A DNA stretch of 15,601 nucleotides from Bacillota bacterium (GTDB lineage: Bacteria; Bacillota; Bacilli; Alicyclobacillales; SLC66), in NCBI GenBank assembly GCA_021821185.1, contig JAKACU010000047.1, positions 1 to 15,601 on the forward strand, given 5' to 3'. Below, in pieces: positions 1,456-11,010 of this stretch. The notes below the pieces were generated by a model. The model did not search any database, was not told the origin of the DNA, and saw only the letters and a program-made list of their open reading frames with translations. The translations under genes were made by a program, and so were the position numbers. The stretch's first letter is position 1. Each line of letters begins with the position of its first letter.

Positions 1456-2745
1456 TTATTTCGCATTGGCTTGACGGCTTTCCCGTCCGCCTTCACGTGA
1501 ATCTCTAGAAGCACTTTCCAATGTGGCCAAATAATCTACATTTGTCTTTGTCTGCATAAAACGGCGTAAAACCATCTCTGCATAATCGCTGTTATCACCC
1601 ATACTGCGACGCAATGCCCAAATTTTATCGAGTTCTTCACTTTTTAAGAGCATTTCCTCGCGTCTCGTACCTGAACGACGAATATCAATCGCAGGAAACA
1701 TTCGTTTTTCAGCTAAACGCCGATCCAAATGCAATTCCAAATTACCTGTACCCTTAAATTCTTCGTAAATCACATCATCCATCCGAGACCCTGTATCGAT
1801 CAAAGCTGTCGCCAAGATTGTCAAACTGCCGCCCTCTTCGATATTGCGAGCAGCGCCAAAAAATCTCTTCGGACGATGGAACGCCGCAGGATCGATACCA
1901 CCTGATAGCGTTCGTCCACTAGGTGGAATCACCAAGTTGTAGGCACGAGCAAGGCGCGTAATACTATCCATCAAAATAACAACATCTCGTTTGTGTTCAA
2001 CCAAACGCATGGCGCGTTCCAAGACTAGCTCGGTCACTTTGATGTGATTTTCTGGAACTTCGTCGAATGTGGACGCAATCACTTCACCGTTTACAGAACG
2101 CTGCATGTCCGTCACTTCTTCAGGCCGTTCATCGATCAGTAAGACGAACAGATCAATGCTTGGATAATTGGTAGAGATGCTATTTGCAATTTCCTTTAAC
2201 AAAAGCGTCTTACCAGCCTTTGGTGGAGCTACGATCAATCCGCGCTGTCCAAGTCCCACAGGACATAAAAGATCCATGATACGAGTGGCAAATCGATTCG
2301 GTGCTGTTTCTAAAACTAGCTTCGTTTGAGGAAACAACGGTGTAAGTGCGGGGAAATGCAATCTTTCTGCTGCTGTTTCTGGATTTGTGCCATTGACTGC
2401 TTCGACTTGCAACAACCCAAAATAACGTTCATTGTCTTTTGGAGGCCGAACCTTGCCGGAAACGAGATCACCCGGTCGTAAATCAAAGCGGCGAATCTGT
2501 GAGGCAGCCACATAAATATCTTCAGCGCTCGGAAGGTAACCAATAGGTCGTAAAAAACCGTATCCCTCAGACATCACATCGAGCACGCCTTCTGCAAAAA
2601 TCAGCCCATCTTTCTCAGCTTGAGCACGCAGAACAGCGAAAATAAGCTCCTTCTTTTTCATGCTAGCATAATAGGGAATCTGAAATTCCTTGGCCAGCTT
2701 GTAAAGTTCAGTGAGCTTCTTCGTCTCCAGCTCCTTAATTTGCAA
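1456..2745 (-). CDS. rho: Transcription termination factor Rho
   Basis: Hexameric RNA-dependent ATPase that ends transcription on untranslated RNA. The 429 residues cover the complete family layout: an N-terminal SAP-like Rho_N helical domain (1-43), a cold-shock-type RNA-binding domain (about 48-120) with the RNP1-like GYGFLRP (61-67), and a RecA-like ATPase. The Walker A is APPKAGKT (173-180), the conserved LIDERPEEVTDM runs 203-214, the Walker B is DVVILMD (254-260), and the C-terminal RRSGTRREE (356-364) is present. There is no long insertion in the N-terminal part. The start is TTG at 2743-2745, preceded by GAGGGTAGG; the next in-frame methionine (residue 29) would remove the start of Rho_N. 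It has its own extended -10 promoter. The tail (411-429) is polar and rich in R, S, E and G. Confidence 0.97.
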   Translation of the reverse strand: MQIKELETKKLTELYKLAKEFQIPYYASMKKKELIFAVLRAQAEKDGLIFAEGVLDVMSEGYGFLRPIGYLPSAEDIYVAASQIRRFDLRPGDLVSGKVRPPKDNERYFGLLQVEAVNGTNPETAAERLHFPALTPLFPQTKLVLETAPNRFATRIMDLLCPVGLGQRGLIVAPPKAGKTLLLKEIANSISTNYPSIDLFVLLIDERPEEVTDMQRSVNGEVIASTFDEVPENHIKVTELVLERAMRLVEHKRDVVILMDSITRLARAYNLVIPPSGRTLSGGIDPAAFHRPKRFFGAARNIEEGGSLTILATALIDTGSRMDDVIYEEFKGTGNLELHLDRRLAEKRMFPAIDIRRSGTRREEMLLKSEELDKIWALRRSMGDNSDYAEMVLRRFMQTKTNVDYLATLESASRDSREGGRESRQANAK

Positions 2746-2841: not shown

Positions 2842-4086
2842 CTAAACGGGAAAAGTAAACTTCGTCCCAGACATACGCCGTTTGATCTCTTCGATCACGG
2901 CCATCTCTGCTTCGATACCATCGGCTTCAAACGTAACACTCCAACGAACATAGGCTCCCGCATCATCCCATGGAACGGTGGAAATTTGTTTTTCGGTGAT
3001 GAGCCATTGTGAAAAATCCTCTGCACTATGAAAGGATGGGCCCCCTTCAACGCCGATAGGTGCAGGAGAATACAGATAAAATGATCCTTTCGGCTTTTGT
3101 ACAGAAAAGCCAAGATCAGACAATGCGCGAACAAGCAGGTTATGACGCCGCGAATATTTTTGTGCAATGTCTTGTGTAATTTCCGGATGTTCCAAAGCGT
3201 AAACGGCAGCTTTTTGAATGGCGATGAACTGCCCAGAGTCATTATTGTCTTTTACTGTAGCGAATCCTTTCACAGCAAGTGCGTTACCCGCCACAAAAGC
3301 CATACGCCACCCTGTCATATTGTACGCTTTTGACAAAGAAAACAGCTCGACACCCACTTCTTTGGCACCAGGTACTGATAGAAAGGACAATGGCTTATGT
3401 TCGTCAAACGTAAGCGCAGAATACGCTGAGTCATGGATAACCAGGATGTTGTGTTTTTTGGCAAATTGGATCACATGTGAAAAAAACTCGACAGTTGCCG
3501 ATGCGCCAGTGGGGTTATTTGGGTAATTAAGGTAAAGGAGCTTTGTCCTTTGTAAGATCTCTTCAGGTACTGTTTCAAGCTGTGGTAAAAATCCGTTTTC
3601 CTTCGTCAAAGGAAGAGTATACACTTCGCCGCCTAAAAACTTGGTGTGTGTGCCAAGCACGGGGTAATTCGGCACCGGCATAATCGTCACATCGCCTGGG
3701 TTGATAAAAACCGTAGGCAACATGGCCAAAGCAGGTTTAGACCCGATGGCGTGATTAATTTCCGTGTCTTTATTGATATCATGAACGCCATACACTTCGG
3801 CCAGATAACGCGCAGCAGCTTCCTTAAATTCCGGAATGCCATTATCCGCATAAAAACGGTTCTCTCTTTTAGGGGCTTCTTTAGCTAGCGTTTCAACGAT
3901 CCCATCTGCCGCCCGATCATCCGGCTCACCGACACCCATATCGATCATAGCGATATCTGGATGAGCCGCCTTAGCAGCGGCTTTAGCTCGCTTAATTTTC
4001 TCAAACTTATAAAGCACGGTATCTTTGCCAAAAGCGAAACCGCCTATACGCTCGGCAAATAGATGCTGAATATAGTGTTCTGTCAC
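2842..4086 (-). CDS. dapL: LL-diaminopimelate aminotransferase-like PLP enzyme
   Basis: A 414-residue fold-type I, class I/II aminotransferase. K253 in SLSKAYNMTGWR is the expected PLP Schiff-base lysine. YPNNPTG (188-194), D219 of the HDSAY segment (pairs with the PLP ring nitrogen) and R381 of YVRWS (binds the substrate carboxylate) complete the active site. The opening GVGEPDDRAAD and the ENRFYADNGIPEFKEA segment resemble the LL-diaminopimelate aminotransferase group, which makes LL-diaminopimelate from tetrahydrodipicolinate in lysine and peptidoglycan synthesis. Substrate assignment is by resemblance; another amino-acid aminotransferase is possible. The GTG start has AAGGAGAGGG upstream, lying inside the last codons of the membrane-protein gene 2 bp away, so translation is probably coupled. 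There is no lysine-pathway neighbour in the window. Confidence 0.75.
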   Translation of the reverse strand: MTEHYIQHLFAERIGGFAFGKDTVLYKFEKIKRAKAAAKAAHPDIAMIDMGVGEPDDRAADGIVETLAKEAPKRENRFYADNGIPEFKEAAARYLAEVYGVHDINKDTEINHAIGSKPALAMLPTVFINPGDVTIMPVPNYPVLGTHTKFLGGEVYTLPLTKENGFLPQLETVPEEILQRTKLLYLNYPNNPTGASATVEFFSHVIQFAKKHNILVIHDSAYSALTFDEHKPLSFLSVPGAKEVGVELFSLSKAYNMTGWRMAFVAGNALAVKGFATVKDNNDSGQFIAIQKAAVYALEHPEITQDIAQKYSRRHNLLVRALSDLGFSVQKPKGSFYLYSPAPIGVEGGPSFHSAEDFSQWLITEKQISTVPWDDAGAYVRWSVTFEADGIEAEMAVIEEIKRRMSGTKFTFPV

Positions 4087-4088
4087 GG

Positions 4089-4718
4089 TTACCCTCTCCT
4101 TATGCCTAAGTATAGCACGATTGATCCGATCGCTTGAAACACATAAAACAATTCATAGACATGCAACGAATCGCCTAAGGATCCGCCAATAGAAAATAAA
4201 ATAACACCCAGAGCAATCCAGACCGCATATAATTTGCGTGTCTTCACGAAAGTGATCACGGCTCCAACAAAGACGGCGGTTGCACCAATACCACTTAATA
4301 ACGCAAAATAAATAGCGATCGCATTCGGAACAAAACCAGCAGCTTTTTCGCCTGCAGGCATGCTATGCAGCAGAGGCACGGGCGTAGTAATCAACGCGAT
4401 AGCCATAAAAAGGGCAATGATCGACATGATGGCAACGTAGATGTGCCCAACCTTTCGAAACAACAGATAAATCGTTCCGGCACCCATATAAGCAACGAGA
4501 GTTGCTGCGCAAAATAGATATAATTTATATTGCCACAAAGACCAATCTTGCATTACATAAGAGAAAAGATCCATGATGCCCGCCACAGCAGCTAACCAAA
4601 ACGAAATCGACCACCACAAAGTTGATACATGGCGTCGGATGGCATAGTCACGTGATAACGATACGGCAAGGACAACCATAAAAATCACAACAATTGCAGA
4701 AGAGATTTCCCCGAACAC
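4089..4718 (-). CDS. Seven-helix integral membrane protein, unknown function
   Basis: I do not recognise this 209-residue protein. Hydrophobic segments at roughly 5-22, 34-55, 64-87, 93-111, 130-157, 163-181 and 188-206 predict seven membrane helices. The chain starts almost inside the first helix with no signal peptide, and ends in a short basic RRG tail. Charged or polar residues within helices (D50 in the second, S180 and D183 near the sixth, E189 near the seventh) could be functional, but no cysteine or histidine metal motif is visible. The GTG start follows GGAAGGTG at good spacing. It begins 20 bp after the transaldolase-like gene and ends 2 bp before the aminotransferase gene, so it is probably in the middle of a three-gene operon. 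Confidence 0.8.
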   Translation of the reverse strand: MFGEISSAIVVIFMVVLAVSLSRDYAIRRHVSTLWWSISFWLAAVAGIMDLFSYVMQDWSLWQYKLYLFCAATLVAYMGAGTIYLLFRKVGHIYVAIMSIIALFMAIALITTPVPLLHSMPAGEKAAGFVPNAIAIYFALLSGIGATAVFVGAVITFVKTRKLYAVWIALGVILFSIGGSLGDSLHVYELFYVFQAIGSIVLYLGIRRG

Positions 4719-4738: not shown

Positions 4739-5383
4739 TCAGTGTTGATTCTTTGCATCCATCAGCATCATTTCAAGGCTCAAATCGGTGACAGGATGAT
4801 AAGCCAACTGAGTCAGCACATCAAAGACTGAGATAATGCCATAAGCACCCGAAACGGCAAGCTTTCCTACACAATCCGCGGTCATCATTCCTTCTACGAG
4901 GATCTTCGTTGAAAGTTGGCTCACAGAGAATGCGTCATACATCGCCTTGACGACAGAGACTACGTCAAGGCCATATTCACCAAGACGTTTGTCATCAAGC
5001 AGGATATAGTGCGCTCCTGCTCTTGCCGCGACCAGGCCCTGAGCAACGGTGCACACATAAGATATTCCTGGTGTCACGCCAAGCGCAGTGACACTTCGCA
5101 CGGCTTTCAAACTTTCTAGTGTCATCGGCATAAAGAGTGTAAACGGTCGTTGAACTGCATATAGGAGATCTTGCGCCTGCCTTGTGATTGCGATTGCATC
5201 AATAGCATCTGCTTTTGCACCAACGAAAGTAAAACCGAGTTCATGCGCTTCTTGCAGCATCAAGGTAGTGTCTCGCCCAGAACGTTTTAAAGCGTGGGAA
5301 TCGAGCAACACACCTTCTACAAATCCAGTTCTTCCGGCCGTCTTTAGCATCGCCGGACCTTGTGCCAAGAGAAAAAAGCGCAT
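4739..5383 (-). CDS. Transaldolase/FSA-family protein with a lost active site
   Basis: A 214-residue protein of the small transaldolase / fructose-6-phosphate aldolase group. Length, the MRFF opening, PMTLESLKAV (86-95), AQGLVAARAGA (114-124) and the HPVTDLSLE (196-204) near the end all align with that family. The catalytic parts do not. The usual opening FFIDTA reads FFLLAQ, so the key Asp is Leu6. The TTNPSL loop reads LLDSHAL. The Schiff-base lysine of VVKIPMT is Phe84 (TLFMPMT). TNVT reads TPGISY, and the phosphate-site SPFVGR reads LDDKR. It cannot work as a normal class I aldolase. The ATG start (5381-5383) has AAGGAG 10 bases upstream; an upstream in-frame GTG sits only one base after that site. 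It follows fbaA beyond a terminator-like hairpin. The frame is intact, so it is probably a maintained pseudoenzyme or binding protein. Confidence 0.8.
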   Translation of the reverse strand: MRFFLLAQGPAMLKTAGRTGFVEGVLLDSHALKRSGRDTTLMLQEAHELGFTFVGAKADAIDAIAITRQAQDLLYAVQRPFTLFMPMTLESLKAVRSVTALGVTPGISYVCTVAQGLVAARAGAHYILLDDKRLGEYGLDVVSVVKAMYDAFSVSQLSTKILVEGMMTADCVGKLAVSGAYGIISVFDVLTQLAYHPVTDLSLEMMLMDAKNQH

Positions 5384-5404
5384 GTACCACACACTCCTTC
5401 ATCG

Positions 5405-5462: not shown

Positions 5463-6317
5463 CTAGTAACGCCCAGCTGAACCAAACAAGCGAATCTTAG
5501 CACGCACAGCTTCTTTGATCGCTTCACGGCCCGGACCAAGATATTTCCTTGGATCATATACTTCTTTATTTTTATCAAAAATAGCACGAATCGTATCAGT
5601 GAAAGCAGACTGATTCTCTGTATTCACATTGATCTTCGACACCCCAAGAGATATTGCTTTCGTGATATCCTCATCAGGAATGCCTGTCCCACCATGTAAA
5701 ACCAAAGGAACGTCAACCAAGCTACGGACTTCTTTAAGACGGTCAAAAGCAAGTTCTGGTTTGCCGACGTAATGACCGTGCGCTGAGCCAATCGCAGGTG
5801 CCAAGGCATCTATACCCGTCAATTGGACAAATTCAACAGCTTCTTCCGGTTTGACAAGCGCTGCCTCTCTCGCATCCACACTAAGATCATCTTCAACACC
5901 GCCGATACGGCCGAGTTCACCTTCGACATGTACGCCGATGGCATGACAGGCTTCAACAACCTTTTTCGTCACAGCTACGTTCTCTTCGTAAGGATGATGA
6001 GAACCATCGATCATGATGGATGTAAAGCCATTTCTCAAGCATTGCATCACCACGTCAAAACTGCTGCCATGATCAAGATGCAAAATGACAGGTACGCGCG
6101 ACATACGCGCCGCCACTTGCGCGAGCGCCGCCGTATATTCCATGCCCATATACTTAATGGCGCCTTCTGAAGCACCAAGGATCACAGGCGCTCCTTCTTC
6201 ATTGGCTACTTCAACAATCGCCTGTGTAAATTCCAGGTTATTGATATTGAATTGTCCCACAGCATAGCCTTTTTGCTGTGCGTCTTTAAGCACTTCCTTA
6301 AACGAACCGAAAGGCAA
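5463..6317 (-). CDS. fbaA: Class II fructose-1,6-bisphosphate aldolase
   Basis: Zinc-dependent glycolytic and gluconeogenic enzyme that interconverts fructose-1,6-bisphosphate with dihydroxyacetone phosphate and glyceraldehyde-3-phosphate. With 284 residues it matches the Bacillus enzyme length. LDHGSS (81-86) carries catalytic D82 and zinc ligand H83. E134 in the VEGELG strand is a conserved metal-site residue, and H180 (GSAHG) and H208 (LVLHGGTG) complete the zinc site. GGTG (209-212) and NVNTE (230-234) form the phosphate and substrate site. The start chosen is TTG at 6315-6317, with AAGGGA 6 bases upstream. It gives the N terminus MPFGSFKEVLKDA, like the family's short beginning; the longer open frame adds 14 residues with no family match. 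It lies 53 bp after spo0F and has its own promoter candidate. Confidence 0.95.
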   Translation of the reverse strand: MPFGSFKEVLKDAQQKGYAVGQFNINNLEFTQAIVEVANEEGAPVILGASEGAIKYMGMEYTAALAQVAARMSRVPVILHLDHGSSFDVVMQCLRNGFTSIMIDGSHHPYEENVAVTKKVVEACHAIGVHVEGELGRIGGVEDDLSVDAREAALVKPEEAVEFVQLTGIDALAPAIGSAHGHYVGKPELAFDRLKEVRSLVDVPLVLHGGTGIPDEDITKAISLGVSKINVNTENQSAFTDTIRAIFDKNKEVYDPRKYLGPGREAIKEAVRAKIRLFGSAGRY

Positions 6318-6349
6318 AATAATCCCTTCTCTCCAGAGAGTATGTGAAT

Positions 6350-6358
6350 ATTGTATCA
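6350..6358 (-). promoter_or_regulatory. Extended -10 promoter for fbaA
   Basis: The minus strand reads TG-A-TACAAT, an extended -10 with five of six -10 matches. It is centred about 37 bp upstream of the TTG start, in the spo0F-fbaA gap. No good -35 is visible. Transcription would start near 6343, leaving a leader of about 26 nt. Confidence 0.45.
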
Positions 6359-6370
6359 CGAATGGACGGG

Positions 6371-6736
6371 TTATGCCGCACCGATCTCGCCGATCACGAA
6401 GCGTTTAATCTCATCGATGTCAAACGGTTTCGTAAAGTGACCTATAGCTTGCAACGCGGCCGCTTCCTTAATCAAATCAAGCTCACCATATGCCGTCATC
6501 ATAATCACTTTTAACTGTGTGTTGACTTTGCGAATGTTCGTCAAAATTTCAATGCCATCCATACCGGGAATTTTCATGTCAAGAAGGACCAGATCAAATT
6601 CGGTACCGCGTATAGCGTTTAGTGCTTCATGCCCATCTGCCGCTACCTGCACATGATATCCTTCACGTTCAAGGACTTCTTGTAACAAAATCCGTATACC
6701 AAACTGATCATCAACAACCAGGATGTTCTTTGCCAA
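6371..6736 (-). CDS. spo0F: Sporulation phosphorelay response regulator Spo0F
   Basis: Single-domain CheY-like receiver that takes phosphate from sporulation kinases and passes it to Spo0B, on the way to Spo0A. The 121 residues contain the acidic pocket D9, D10 and the phosphoacceptor D53 (LLDMKIPGMDG), plus T81 (MMTAYGELD) and K103 (FTKPFDIDEI). The YGELD and KPFDIDEI segments are characteristic of Spo0F rather than of general receivers. No output domain follows. The start is TTG at 6734-6736, with GGGGGTG 8 bases upstream, giving MAKNILVVDDQ as in other Spo0F proteins. An ATG at 6761-6763 would add nine unmatched residues and lies in a small GGCGC-AAT-GCGCC hairpin. It follows pyrG by 41 bp. 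It marks the organism as a spore former. Confidence 0.93.
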   Translation of the reverse strand: MAKNILVVDDQFGIRILLQEVLEREGYHVQVAADGHEALNAIRGTEFDLVLLDMKIPGMDGIEILTNIRKVNTQLKVIMMTAYGELDLIKEAAALQAIGHFTKPFDIDEIKRFVIGEIGAA

Positions 6737-6777
6737 GAATACGACACCCCCAGTATGGCGCATTGCGCCTCGTTTCC

Positions 6778-8376
<1,599 letters not shown>

Positions 8377-8530: not shown

Positions 8531-9058
8531 TCAAAAATCTTCTTCCTCTTCTTCATCTTCTACGTCGAGATCATCTTCCTCAACATCAGCGTCTTCTTCA
8601 GTAAATCCATTTTCCTCGAGAACTTCTTCGTCCTCAACAAACGCCGACTCATCATCTTCGCCAAAACCAAACGGCGGCTCTTCCACAAGATCCTCTTCTT
8701 CTAATTCAACAACATCCACATCATCATCGTCATCATCGTAGTCCAACTCTTTACGCATGAACTTCTTACCGGCTCCGCGCTCCGTCGTCTTTTCCATAGG
8801 ATACCAACGTCTAAGACCCCAGACGTTATCGCCGATGCAAAGAAATCGTCCGTCGATATTCACTTCCGTGTAGAGTCGAGCGATCGCATCATCAGCCTCT
8901 TCTTGACTCATCTTGCGTAAACCTGCAATTCTTCCCATAAGGTCACGATAATAAATAGGTTCGTTTGTCTCGCTAAGCAATTCATGCGCCAATTCTACTA
9001 AAGGCGTTTCTCGCAACGTATCCAATGGGCGACTCTCTAGCTTATGCTCGCCAGCCAT
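8531..9058 (-). CDS. rpoE: RNA polymerase delta subunit
   Basis: Gram-positive-specific RNA polymerase subunit that raises promoter selectivity and recycling. The 175-residue protein has an N-terminal HARE-HTH domain (about 14-88: TPLVELAHELL, YTEVNIDGRFL, VWGLRRWYP) and an extremely acidic, probably disordered tail (106-175) made mostly of D and E, including a run of six D. Length matches the family (about 173). The start is ATG at 9056-9058 with GGGAG 9 bases upstream, giving MAGEHKLESR; a longer open frame to 9127 adds 23 residues unlike the family. It lies 65 bp after the Fe-S oxidoreductase gene with a promoter candidate in the gap, and is closed by its own terminator. Confidence 0.95.
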   Translation of the reverse strand: MAGEHKLESRPLDTLRETPLVELAHELLSETNEPIYYRDLMGRIAGLRKMSQEEADDAIARLYTEVNIDGRFLCIGDNVWGLRRWYPMEKTTERGAGKKFMRKELDYDDDDDDVDVVELEEEDLVEEPPFGFGEDDESAFVEDEEVLEENGFTEEDADVEEDDLDVEDEEEEEDF

Positions 9059-9091
9059 ACACACACTCCCATAAAAATATTGTCTGTTGGT

Positions 9092-9120
9092 ATTAAAACA
9101 CAACCAGCCTAGTTCGGCAA
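9092..9120 (-). promoter_or_regulatory. Putative rpoE promoter
   Basis: Minus strand: TTGCCG (9115-9120), 17-bp spacer, TTTAAT (9092-9097). It matches four of six -35 and five of six -10 positions, in the gap between the Fe-S oxidoreductase stop and rpoE. Prediction only; read-through from the upstream gene is also likely because no terminator is seen in the gap. Confidence 0.45.
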
Positions 9121-9123
9121 ACA

Positions 9124-11010
9124 TCAAACTGCCATGAGTAAAAGTTCTGCCACATCCAGTGTCTCTACCTGTTCTTCGACATTTTTTTGCTTCGTCCCAT
9201 CAATAAGCATCGTCATGCAATAGGGGCAAGCCGTGGCAATAACCGAAGCACCCGTTTCAAGAACTTGTTCTGTACGCATGATGTTAATGCGTTTCTTGCC
9301 TGTCTCCTCCTTAAACATCAAACCACCGCCCGCACCACAGCACAAACTGTTGTCGTGGTTTTGTTTCATCTCGACCAGTTCAAGACCCGGAATACTTTCT
9401 AGGACACGTCGCGGTGCATCATAGATTCCATTGTAACGGCCAAGATAGCATGAATCATGGTACGTAATTTTTTTCTCGATACGATGTTGCGGCGTGATTT
9501 TACCTTTTGCAAGCAACATGGCTAAAAACTCCGTGTGATGAATAACTTCACAAGAAAACCCAAAATCAACGTACTCCTTTTTAAACGCATTGTAGGCATG
9601 GGGGTCTGTCGTAATAATCTTTGTAACCCCATAAGATGTCATTAAGTTGATGTTACGGGACGCTAGCTCTTGGTACAAAAACTCATTGCCAAGTCGTCGC
9701 GCCGAATCACCGTCACTCTCCTCTTCTTCGCCAAAAATCGCAAAATTCACACCTGCTCGTTGCAATAATTGAACAAAAGCACGTGCAATCTTCTGATTTC
9801 TCGGGTCAAACGACGCAGCTGATCCTACATAATATAGATAGTCGACCTGTCCTTCGGTTTCTTTCATCGTAGGTACAGCAAGATCCTTTGCCCAATCACC
9901 GCGCATTCTTTTGGGCCTGCCCCATTCATTGGATTGGCGTTCTAGATTCGCAAAGGTGCGATTGACTTCCGCTGGCGCATTCCCTTCGGTCAACACAAAG
10001 TTCCTGCGCAAATCAACGATCAAACTCACATGTTCATTGGCTACGGGGCAGACTTGCTCACATGCGCGACATGTCGTGCAGGCCCAAATTTCATCCTCGC
10101 TATAAACAGAATTCATGAGGCTCGTTGCTGCAAAGCCTTCCGTTCCTGCCTCCAATTGCAGCAGACTCGGTCCAACATGTACAAGATTATCTTTCATCTT
10201 AAGGATCAAATATTTTGGCGATAACGCTTTGCCAGTAAGTTGTGCTGGACAGCTGACATGGCAACGCCCACACTCGGTGCACGCATAACCATCGAGTAAT
10301 TGCTTCCACGTAAGATCAGTAATATGTCCTGCACCAAATTGTTCTATCGTCTCATCGGACAGATCAAGTTTCTTCAATTTACCGACAGGTTCTAAAGATT
10401 GAAAATACCAATTTAAAACCGCAGCGATCATGTGCAAGTGTTTGGATCGCGGAATATAAACGAGAAAACCTAAGATAGCCAGGGTATGCGCCCAAAATAG
10501 CACTTCGCCAAACGCACCTGTGACAATGCCTTTCAAAAGAATTGTCACTACAATCACCGCGATGAGCAATAAAATAAATCCGGCTTCTAAGGTGGGTTCG
10601 AGTCGAGCTGGTCGAACGATGTACCGTCTGACCAAAGCTACAATGACGGCAAGGAGCACGAGAACAGCAAACCATTGTTGTACGAAAACAAACCAAGATG
10701 CTGTGAATCCCGGTATGTGTGCGCCAAAAACACCCGAAGAAAAATAGTCCAATTCACCAAATCCCAATAAAATAAAACCCCAAAAGATAAAAAAATGACC
10801 AATACCTGCAGGTTGCGCTAACACCTTACGTTGACCAAACACATTTTTCAAGACACCGTAGAGGCGCTTCCCTACCTGGTCGAAACGGTCCTCCGCTTTG
10901 CCTAGACGAAGATAATGATAACGCTCTATAATTCCCATCGTAAACGCATACAAAGCGGCAACTGCCAAGACCACAAATGCAATGACGCGCAACCAAAGCA
11001 TAGCCATCAC
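9124..11010 (-). CDS. fadF: Membrane Fe-S oxidoreductase, FadF / ETF-quinone type
   Basis: A 628-residue membrane-anchored electron-transfer protein. About five hydrophobic segments (6-26, 69-90, 104-128, 142-165, 170-188) form a NarI-like N-terminal part. Two [4Fe-4S] ferredoxin motifs follow (C244, C247, C250, C254 and C311, C314, C317, C321), then two HdrB/GlpC-type CCG repeats. The second repeat is intact, with C521, CCGAGGG (557-563) and CPYC (595-598). The first (about 393-480) has lost its cysteines: VGSAASFD, EESDGD and TTDPHAYN. This family passes electrons from acyl-CoA dehydrogenases, via electron-transfer flavoprotein, to menaquinone in fatty-acid oxidation. B. subtilis fadF also lies upstream of rpoE, with an acyl-CoA dehydrogenase gene that is missing here. 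The exact start is unsure: GTG 11010, ATG 11007 or ATG 11001. A FadR-like site covers its promoter. Confidence 0.85.
   Translation of the reverse strand: MMAMLWLRVIAFVVLAVAALYAFTMGIIERYHYLRLGKAEDRFDQVGKRLYGVLKNVFGQRKVLAQPAGIGHFFIFWGFILLGFGELDYFSSGVFGAHIPGFTASWFVFVQQWFAVLVLLAVIVALVRRYIVRPARLEPTLEAGFILLLIAVIVVTILLKGIVTGAFGEVLFWAHTLAILGFLVYIPRSKHLHMIAAVLNWYFQSLEPVGKLKKLDLSDETIEQFGAGHITDLTWKQLLDGYACTECGRCHVSCPAQLTGKALSPKYLILKMKDNLVHVGPSLLQLEAGTEGFAATSLMNSVYSEDEIWACTTCRACEQVCPVANEHVSLIVDLRRNFVLTEGNAPAEVNRTFANLERQSNEWGRPKRMRGDWAKDLAVPTMKETEGQVDYLYYVGSAASFDPRNQKIARAFVQLLQRAGVNFAIFGEEEESDGDSARRLGNEFLYQELASRNINLMTSYGVTKIITTDPHAYNAFKKEYVDFGFSCEVIHHTEFLAMLLAKGKITPQHRIEKKITYHDSCYLGRYNGIYDAPRRVLESIPGLELVEMKQNHDNSLCCGAGGGLMFKEETGKKRINIMRTEQVLETGASVIATACPYCMTMLIDGTKQKNVEEQVETLDVAELLLMAV

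Follow-up and report, generated by a model that had tools for sequence, protein, structure and literature searches.

The 15,601-nucleotide stretch of DNA analysed here (the window; contig JAKACU010000047.1 of the Bacillota bacterium assembly GCA_021821185.1, order Alicyclobacillales, class Bacilli) carries at 4739..5383 a gene for a protein of the FSA/TalC transaldolase family in which the residues of the active site have been replaced. The reading frame was uninterrupted and gave 214 amino acids from the ATG at 5383, with an alternative GTG start at 5392. The gene and its features are listed below; L001 and P0003 denote relatives that are described in a later section.

4739..5383, minus strand: pseudo-transaldolase (FSA/TalC family), 214 amino acids, without the Schiff-base lysine
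5394..5399, minus strand: putative ribosome-binding site AAGGAG, 10 nt 5' of the ATG (direct reading)
5366..5368, minus strand: Leu6 codon at the position of the family's catalytic Asp6 (sequence and alignment)
5288..5308, minus strand: LLDSHAL (residues 26-32), replacing the TTNPSL loop (sequence and alignment)
5213..5215, minus strand: codon of Lys57, where beta-3 ends and canonical copies have Glu; Lys otherwise only in L001, Gln in P0003
5132..5134, minus strand: codon of Phe84, in place of the Schiff-base Lys (sequence and alignment)
4985..4999, minus strand: LDDKR (residues 129-133), replacing the phosphate-site PFxGR with the final Arg retained (alignment)
4784..4798, minus strand: HPVTD (residues 196-200), within the best-kept element of the family, beginning the C-terminal helix of the structure model

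Fold and active site

Residues 1-211 matched TIGR00875 (E = 1.2e-21, 77.2 bits, under the cut-off of 245.95) and a match to Pfam TAL_FSA (PF00923) was also obtained (E = 0.0015, 18.4 bits, under the cut-off of 27). The top solved structure by sequence was the B. subtilis transaldolase 3r8r (E = 2e-16) and the structure model was a confident barrel, so that a single-domain (beta/alpha)8 barrel of the class of about 215 amino acids was obtained, in agreement with solved FSA/TalC members. The open frame and the matches to TIGR00875 and 3r8r bear out the intact, family-length frame and transaldolase fold that had been proposed in an initial annotation of the window.

The active site was compared by alignment with canonical relatives of the same order, and the pocket was judged from the alignment alone. 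According to a published description, the FSA site includes Asp6, Asn28, Gln59, Thr109 and Tyr131 (PMC13259622). The replacements of Asp6 on beta-1 by Leu6, of TTNPSL by LLDSHAL and of the Schiff-base lysine on beta-4 by Phe84 were all seen in the alignment, as the initial annotation had claimed, and the Asn of TTNP on beta-2 corresponded to Asp28. The claim that SPFVGR had become LDDKR stood for the motif, since SPFxGR aligned with LLDDKR (residues 128-133) and the Ser and Phe of beta-6 with Leu and Asp, but not for its final Arg, which is kept as R133. Beyond the positions listed in that annotation, the Glu of beta-3 was replaced by Lys57 and the Asn and Thr of beta-5 by Gly106 and Ser108; the Ser of beta-7 was replaced by Gly165. 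On this comparison the protein qualifies as a pseudoenzyme, that is, an enzyme homologue without the essential catalytic residues.

Lysine-less relatives

Protein searches returned four further relatives without the lysine, P0002 (82%), P0003 (57%), P0004 (34%) and P0006 (31%). P0002 is the protein of locus L001 (MAG: Bacillota bacterium isolate WH4.bin38), from which it differs by one residue in the reading of the start codon. A profile of the five sequences matched 16 of the 18 genomes of the taxonomic family of L001 (hereafter the family), and both the catalytic Lys and Asp were gone in the alignment of all 16 loci, the Lys position being occupied by Phe, Leu, Val or Ala. The two genomes without a profile match are not counter-examples, because the contig of G004 ends 651 bases past pyrG and in G005 no pyrG was visible either.

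A profile search of a collection of 5.8 billion proteins (7996 candidates scored, best 120 of 149 matches) gave six new Lys-less proteins, after which the E-value jumped from 7e-62 to 1e-38. P0004 and P0006 were missed, so that the Lys-less count is a lower bound. The other new proteins among the matches listed (111/117) keep the lysine. Given that relatives at 82% and 57% identity and more distant ones share the loss while 111/117 keep the residue, the loss of the lysine is more than chance. In a class-wide sample of 299 genomes, 33 genomes outside the order were under the cut-off and 30 loci were read, and the lysine was kept in all 29 that covered the position; G090, G155, G179 and 243 above-cut-off genomes (the order's own excepted) were left out of this reading. 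FSA matches that were broken or interrupted by stop codons were seen in G140 contig 105 (L163) and G155 contig 1, and ordinary decay thus occurs elsewhere in the class.

Residue conservation

Over 24 family rows the mean entropy was 2.10 bits for the former catalytic columns, 1.90 bits for all columns and 1.54 bits for the other canonically invariant columns (p = 0.051 against the latter and p = 0.59 against all remaining columns). Because variation in the former catalytic columns is close to that of an average position, no conserved ligand pocket was evident apart from a new Arg29 and Glu57, both of which are replaced in the window itself, and the sugar-phosphate sensor suggested in the initial annotation was not borne out. 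The lowest entropies were found for the YHPxTD element (0.71 bits), beta-1 (1.09 bits) and Q115 with the AARAGA helix (1.22 bits), whereas the tail and several helices vary freely. The best-kept parts (beta-1, Q115 to the AARAGA helix and HPxTD at the beginning of the C-terminal helix) would point to scaffold and assembly rather than to a pocket.

These data also bear on the idea that the protein is a re-purposed enzyme with a new, lysine-independent chemistry based on a polar set of Arg29, Glu57, Gln108, Asp130 and Glu/Asp at 164-165. Arg29 was present in 21/24 family rows, where canonical copies have Pro in 152/152, and Glu57 in 18/24, Gln108 in 14/24 and Asp130 in 13/24. However, no residue of this set is invariant, and Arg29 is missing from the window (Ser29, Lys57) and from its relatives at 82% and 57% identity, all of which have Lys or Gln at position 57. 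A catalytic site would furthermore be expected among the best-conserved parts of a protein, yet here the former catalytic columns vary like the rest, and we regard a re-purposed enzyme as unlikely.

Selection on the gene

The ratio of nonsynonymous to synonymous substitutions (dN/dS) was calculated by the Nei-Gojobori method for hand-picked pairs of sequences. Five close pairs of family pseudo-transaldolases gave 0.180-0.201 and two wider pairs 0.233 and 0.294, with upper limits of at most 0.42; for the window against the genome of L001 the ratio was 0.183 (bootstrap 0.112-0.296). Between the latter two genomes the neighbouring genes gave 0.015 (fba), 0.019 (rho), 0.034 (pyrG), 0.050 (aminotransferase), 0.073 (spo0F) and 0.089 (membrane gene), and canonical FSA gave 0.007-0.039 in four pairs and 0.104 in a pair of copies with Gln in place of the lysine. 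The frame was intact in 16/16 family loci at identities down to 21%, the one in G009 stopping about six codons earlier at a stop codon of its own, and no disrupted ortholog was found among them. The presence of the gene in 16/18 family genomes and the dN/dS of 0.18-0.29 agree with the earlier proposal of a maintained rather than decaying gene: the pseudo-transaldolase is maintained by purifying selection and is no pseudogene.

Slow decay, in which a displaced gene drifts to loss while being carried along by its position amid housekeeping genes, could account for a dN/dS several-fold above that of canonical copies and neighbours and for the free variation of the tail and several helices. Neutral decay over such a depth should, however, have broken frames, and the limits on dN/dS and the confident barrel also argue against it; we consider this explanation quite improbable.

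Gene neighbourhood

The following genes surround the pseudo-transaldolase in the window.

1456..2745, minus strand: transcription terminator Rho, syntenic marker (name recognised)
2842..4086, minus strand: class I/II aminotransferase; lies downstream of the gene throughout the family
4089..4718, minus strand: small membrane protein, downstream at a distance of 20 nt and detected in only some relatives
5463..6359, minus strand: class II fructose-bisphosphate aldolase (fba), next gene upstream
6371..6763, minus strand: Spo0F-like response regulator, syntenic marker (named from sequence and position)
6778..8370, minus strand: CTP synthase (pyrG), used both as a syntenic marker and for the species tree (name recognised)

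Synteny was examined by tblastn of the genes of the window onto the fetched loci, which for most canonical copies comprised 1500 bases per side. Within the reach of the contigs the gene order in the family was pyrG, spo0F, (fba), pseudo-transaldolase, (membrane protein), aminotransferase and rho, and at many canonical loci FSA adjoins spo0F, ahead of rho or an aminotransferase. The pseudo-transaldolase thus occupies the locus of the canonical FSA copies of the order. The aminotransferase followed it in all 15 family loci reaching that far and fba adjoined it in 13/16; a partnership with fba by adjacency was rejected, fba not being detected beside the gene in G006, G007 and G008. An extra open reading frame stands ahead of fba in at least two relatives (L010 and L018) and presumably encodes a protein resembling beta-keto acid cleavage enzyme; unlike these, the window has no open reading frame between spo0F and fba. 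At 8531-9127 the window carries what we take to be an RpoE-like protein, whose long tail is rich in Asp and Glu, like that of the RNA polymerase delta subunit.

The membrane protein (209 amino acids) matched no Pfam or NCBIfam family above cut-off. Its gene was detected in 8/15 testable relatives (51-59% identity, 91% in L001). In the other 7/15 it was not detected by tblastn, and at most about 150 nt lie there between pseudo-transaldolase and aminotransferase. The initial annotation had raised the possibility that the protein acts as a sugar-phosphate sensor through, or as a partner of, this coupled seven-helix protein. The close spacing in the window and the dN/dS of the membrane gene would suit such an arrangement, but its absence from the tblastn results for nearly half of the testable relatives that bear the pseudo-transaldolase weakens the partnership, which was rejected as a general role, and a membrane-coupled sensor seems to us very unlikely. 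Adjacency singles out no partner.

Second transaldolase and repeated loss of the lysine

A search with PF00923 revealed a second, long transaldolase in 15/18 family genomes. One sequence from each of these 15 passes the TIGR00876 and PRK03343 cut-offs, as did three scanned outside the family, and the lysine was kept in the sequence read from each of the 24 genomes of the order that have a long enzyme. Transketolase was also present at 14/16 family loci bearing the long transaldolase. The displaced transaldolase step is probably covered by the long enzyme in most family genomes.

Among the 59 genomes of the order, 41 lie outside the family, of which 36 have an intact FSA site (that of G055 pieced from two separate fragments) and five an altered one. 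In G022 and G032 the lysine is replaced by Gln (CAG codon in both) with the other listed site residues intact, and each genome has a further canonical FSA. These Gln copies (L093 1501-2133 and L094 1501-2133) lie at the pyrG-rho locus. In G045 the lysine is replaced by Asn, together with other site losses; its frame (L083 6184-6816) has 238 residues with a C-terminal extension of about 24. In G046 and G019 the lysine is present and other site residues are lost. The long transaldolase was found in 5/5 altered and 4/36 canonical genomes outside the family (Fisher's exact test, p = 1.7e-4, kinship ignored); a kinship-aware contrast of loss against the second transaldolase had only three independent pairs, with which significance is out of reach.

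In a pyrG tree rooted with eight outgroups, 40 non-family rows formed a clade (support 100), with G045 and G046 as its first branches (87 and 89) and G022/G032 nested inside (98). Unless lysines were regained, the residue would thus have been lost at least three times in the order, and if the family is not monophyletic the losses would be more.

A proposed retained non-catalytic role

We think it rather likely that the gene encodes a maintained pseudo-transaldolase with a non-catalytic role exerted by binding or assembly. The gene descends vertically from the FSA-type transaldolase sited beside spo0F and rho in relatives of the same order, to which it is orthologous, and its catalytic set would have been lost in the family ancestor once a second enzyme had made FSA chemistry dispensable. 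As the Lys-enamine intermediate should be impossible, the protein would be neither a transaldolase nor a fructose-6-phosphate aldolase. It may instead be kept folded, probably as a ring-shaped oligomer, and act through binding to another protein or to a metabolite, in what is most likely a second job dating back to the active enzyme.

Several observations count against this explanation. The long transaldolase was not found in G006, G010 and G011 (3/18 family genomes, completeness not stated), and in G024, G025, G040 and G059 an intact FSA persists alongside the long enzyme, so that redundancy is not always followed by loss. The gene is constrained about 5 to 40 times less strongly than the canonical pairs, which leaves some room for slow decay. 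Position 6 is Glu in 4/16 family loci, an acid being retained in one sub-branch, with various residues elsewhere, and family monophyly had a support of 100 in the unrooted pyrG tree and only 75 in the rooted one. Retention of the ring is suggested by motif conservation only, and we know of no partner, ligand or phenotype.

That a relocated Schiff base has replaced the lost lysine in the lineage of the window is most improbable. The initial annotation had named a Lys and an Asp elsewhere in the pocket as a refutation of its reading, and Lys57 (where beta-3 ends) with Asp28 and Asp130 does answer literally to that description. Lys57 occupies the alignment column of the conserved Glu on beta-3 and is common to the window and L001, but position 57 is Gln in P0003 and varies between Glu, Gln and Gly in the others. 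In the family alignment, moreover, Lys never exceeds 10/24 rows in any column, and Lys57 is not taken as a retained catalytic group because among the 24 rows only L001 shares it.

Three stages can be recognised in the order: one catalytic residue lost in G022 and G032 (Lys to Gln), a partial loss in G045, G046 and G019, and complete loss in the family of the window. Repeated retention after repeated loss is most simply explained if a second, non-catalytic use was present in the active ancestor. Tentatively, and short of calling it probable, we suggest that FSA-type transaldolases of the order, and perhaps of Bacilli generally, may have a second, hidden function for which the folded ring is required but catalysis is not, the site being free to go after takeover by another enzyme. 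B. subtilis YwjH has been reported to be a substrate of PrkC (PMC4205851) and to form a multimer whose secretion involves no signal peptide (PMC5343618). Both are leads only. A PrkC phospho-switch inherited from YwjH was rejected, as Thr occurs in only 2/24 family rows at the position of Thr125, which we take to be the PrkC site.

Such a natural series, in which an enzyme of central metabolism loses its chemistry step by step, three times or more within a single order and at a fixed locus, would make a second, non-catalytic function of a housekeeping enzyme directly testable, given that the probable replacement enzyme is identified. It also carries a warning for annotation: the Lys-to-Gln copy scanned scored 306.9 bits, above the NCBIfam equivalog cut-off of 245.95, and would be named fructose-6-phosphate aldolase and likely annotated as active.

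Comparison with known systems

Pseudoenzymes as a kind are already known, but a transaldolase pseudoenzyme was not found among the matches listed from the open-licence PubMed Central literature (subscription papers being outside this scope). The trypanosome prozyme, a pseudoenzyme that regulates or assembles with its active relative (PMC6221367), is similar in being a retained enzyme homologue without catalysis of its own. It differs in being a paralogue bound to its active homologue, whereas the active enzyme of the family genomes comes from a distant branch and is not known to form a complex with the pseudo-transaldolase. That enzyme, of the TIGR00876 (tal_mycobact) type, is of the same transaldolase family and probably carries out the displaced reaction in these genomes, but is matched over about 340 amino acids, keeps the lysine and lies mostly beside transketolase at another locus.

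The FSA/TalC transaldolases (B. subtilis 3r8r; T. maritima TM0295, 1vpx) have the same fold, length and single domain as the pseudo-transaldolase, which lacks their Asp6, TTNP, Glu of beta-3, Lys, Asn and Thr of beta-5, Ser and Phe of beta-6 and Ser of beta-7. The FSA assembly has been described as a pair of pentameric rings whose neighbours swap helices (PMC13259622). The canonical FSA copies of the order share with the pseudo-transaldolase, in addition, its surroundings on the chromosome and its HPxTD and AARAGA motifs. The swapped helix is presumably the C-terminal one. In the Lys86Ala transaldolase of T. acidophilum (PDB 3s1w) the barrel is likewise folded without the lysine, but that protein is a laboratory point mutant.
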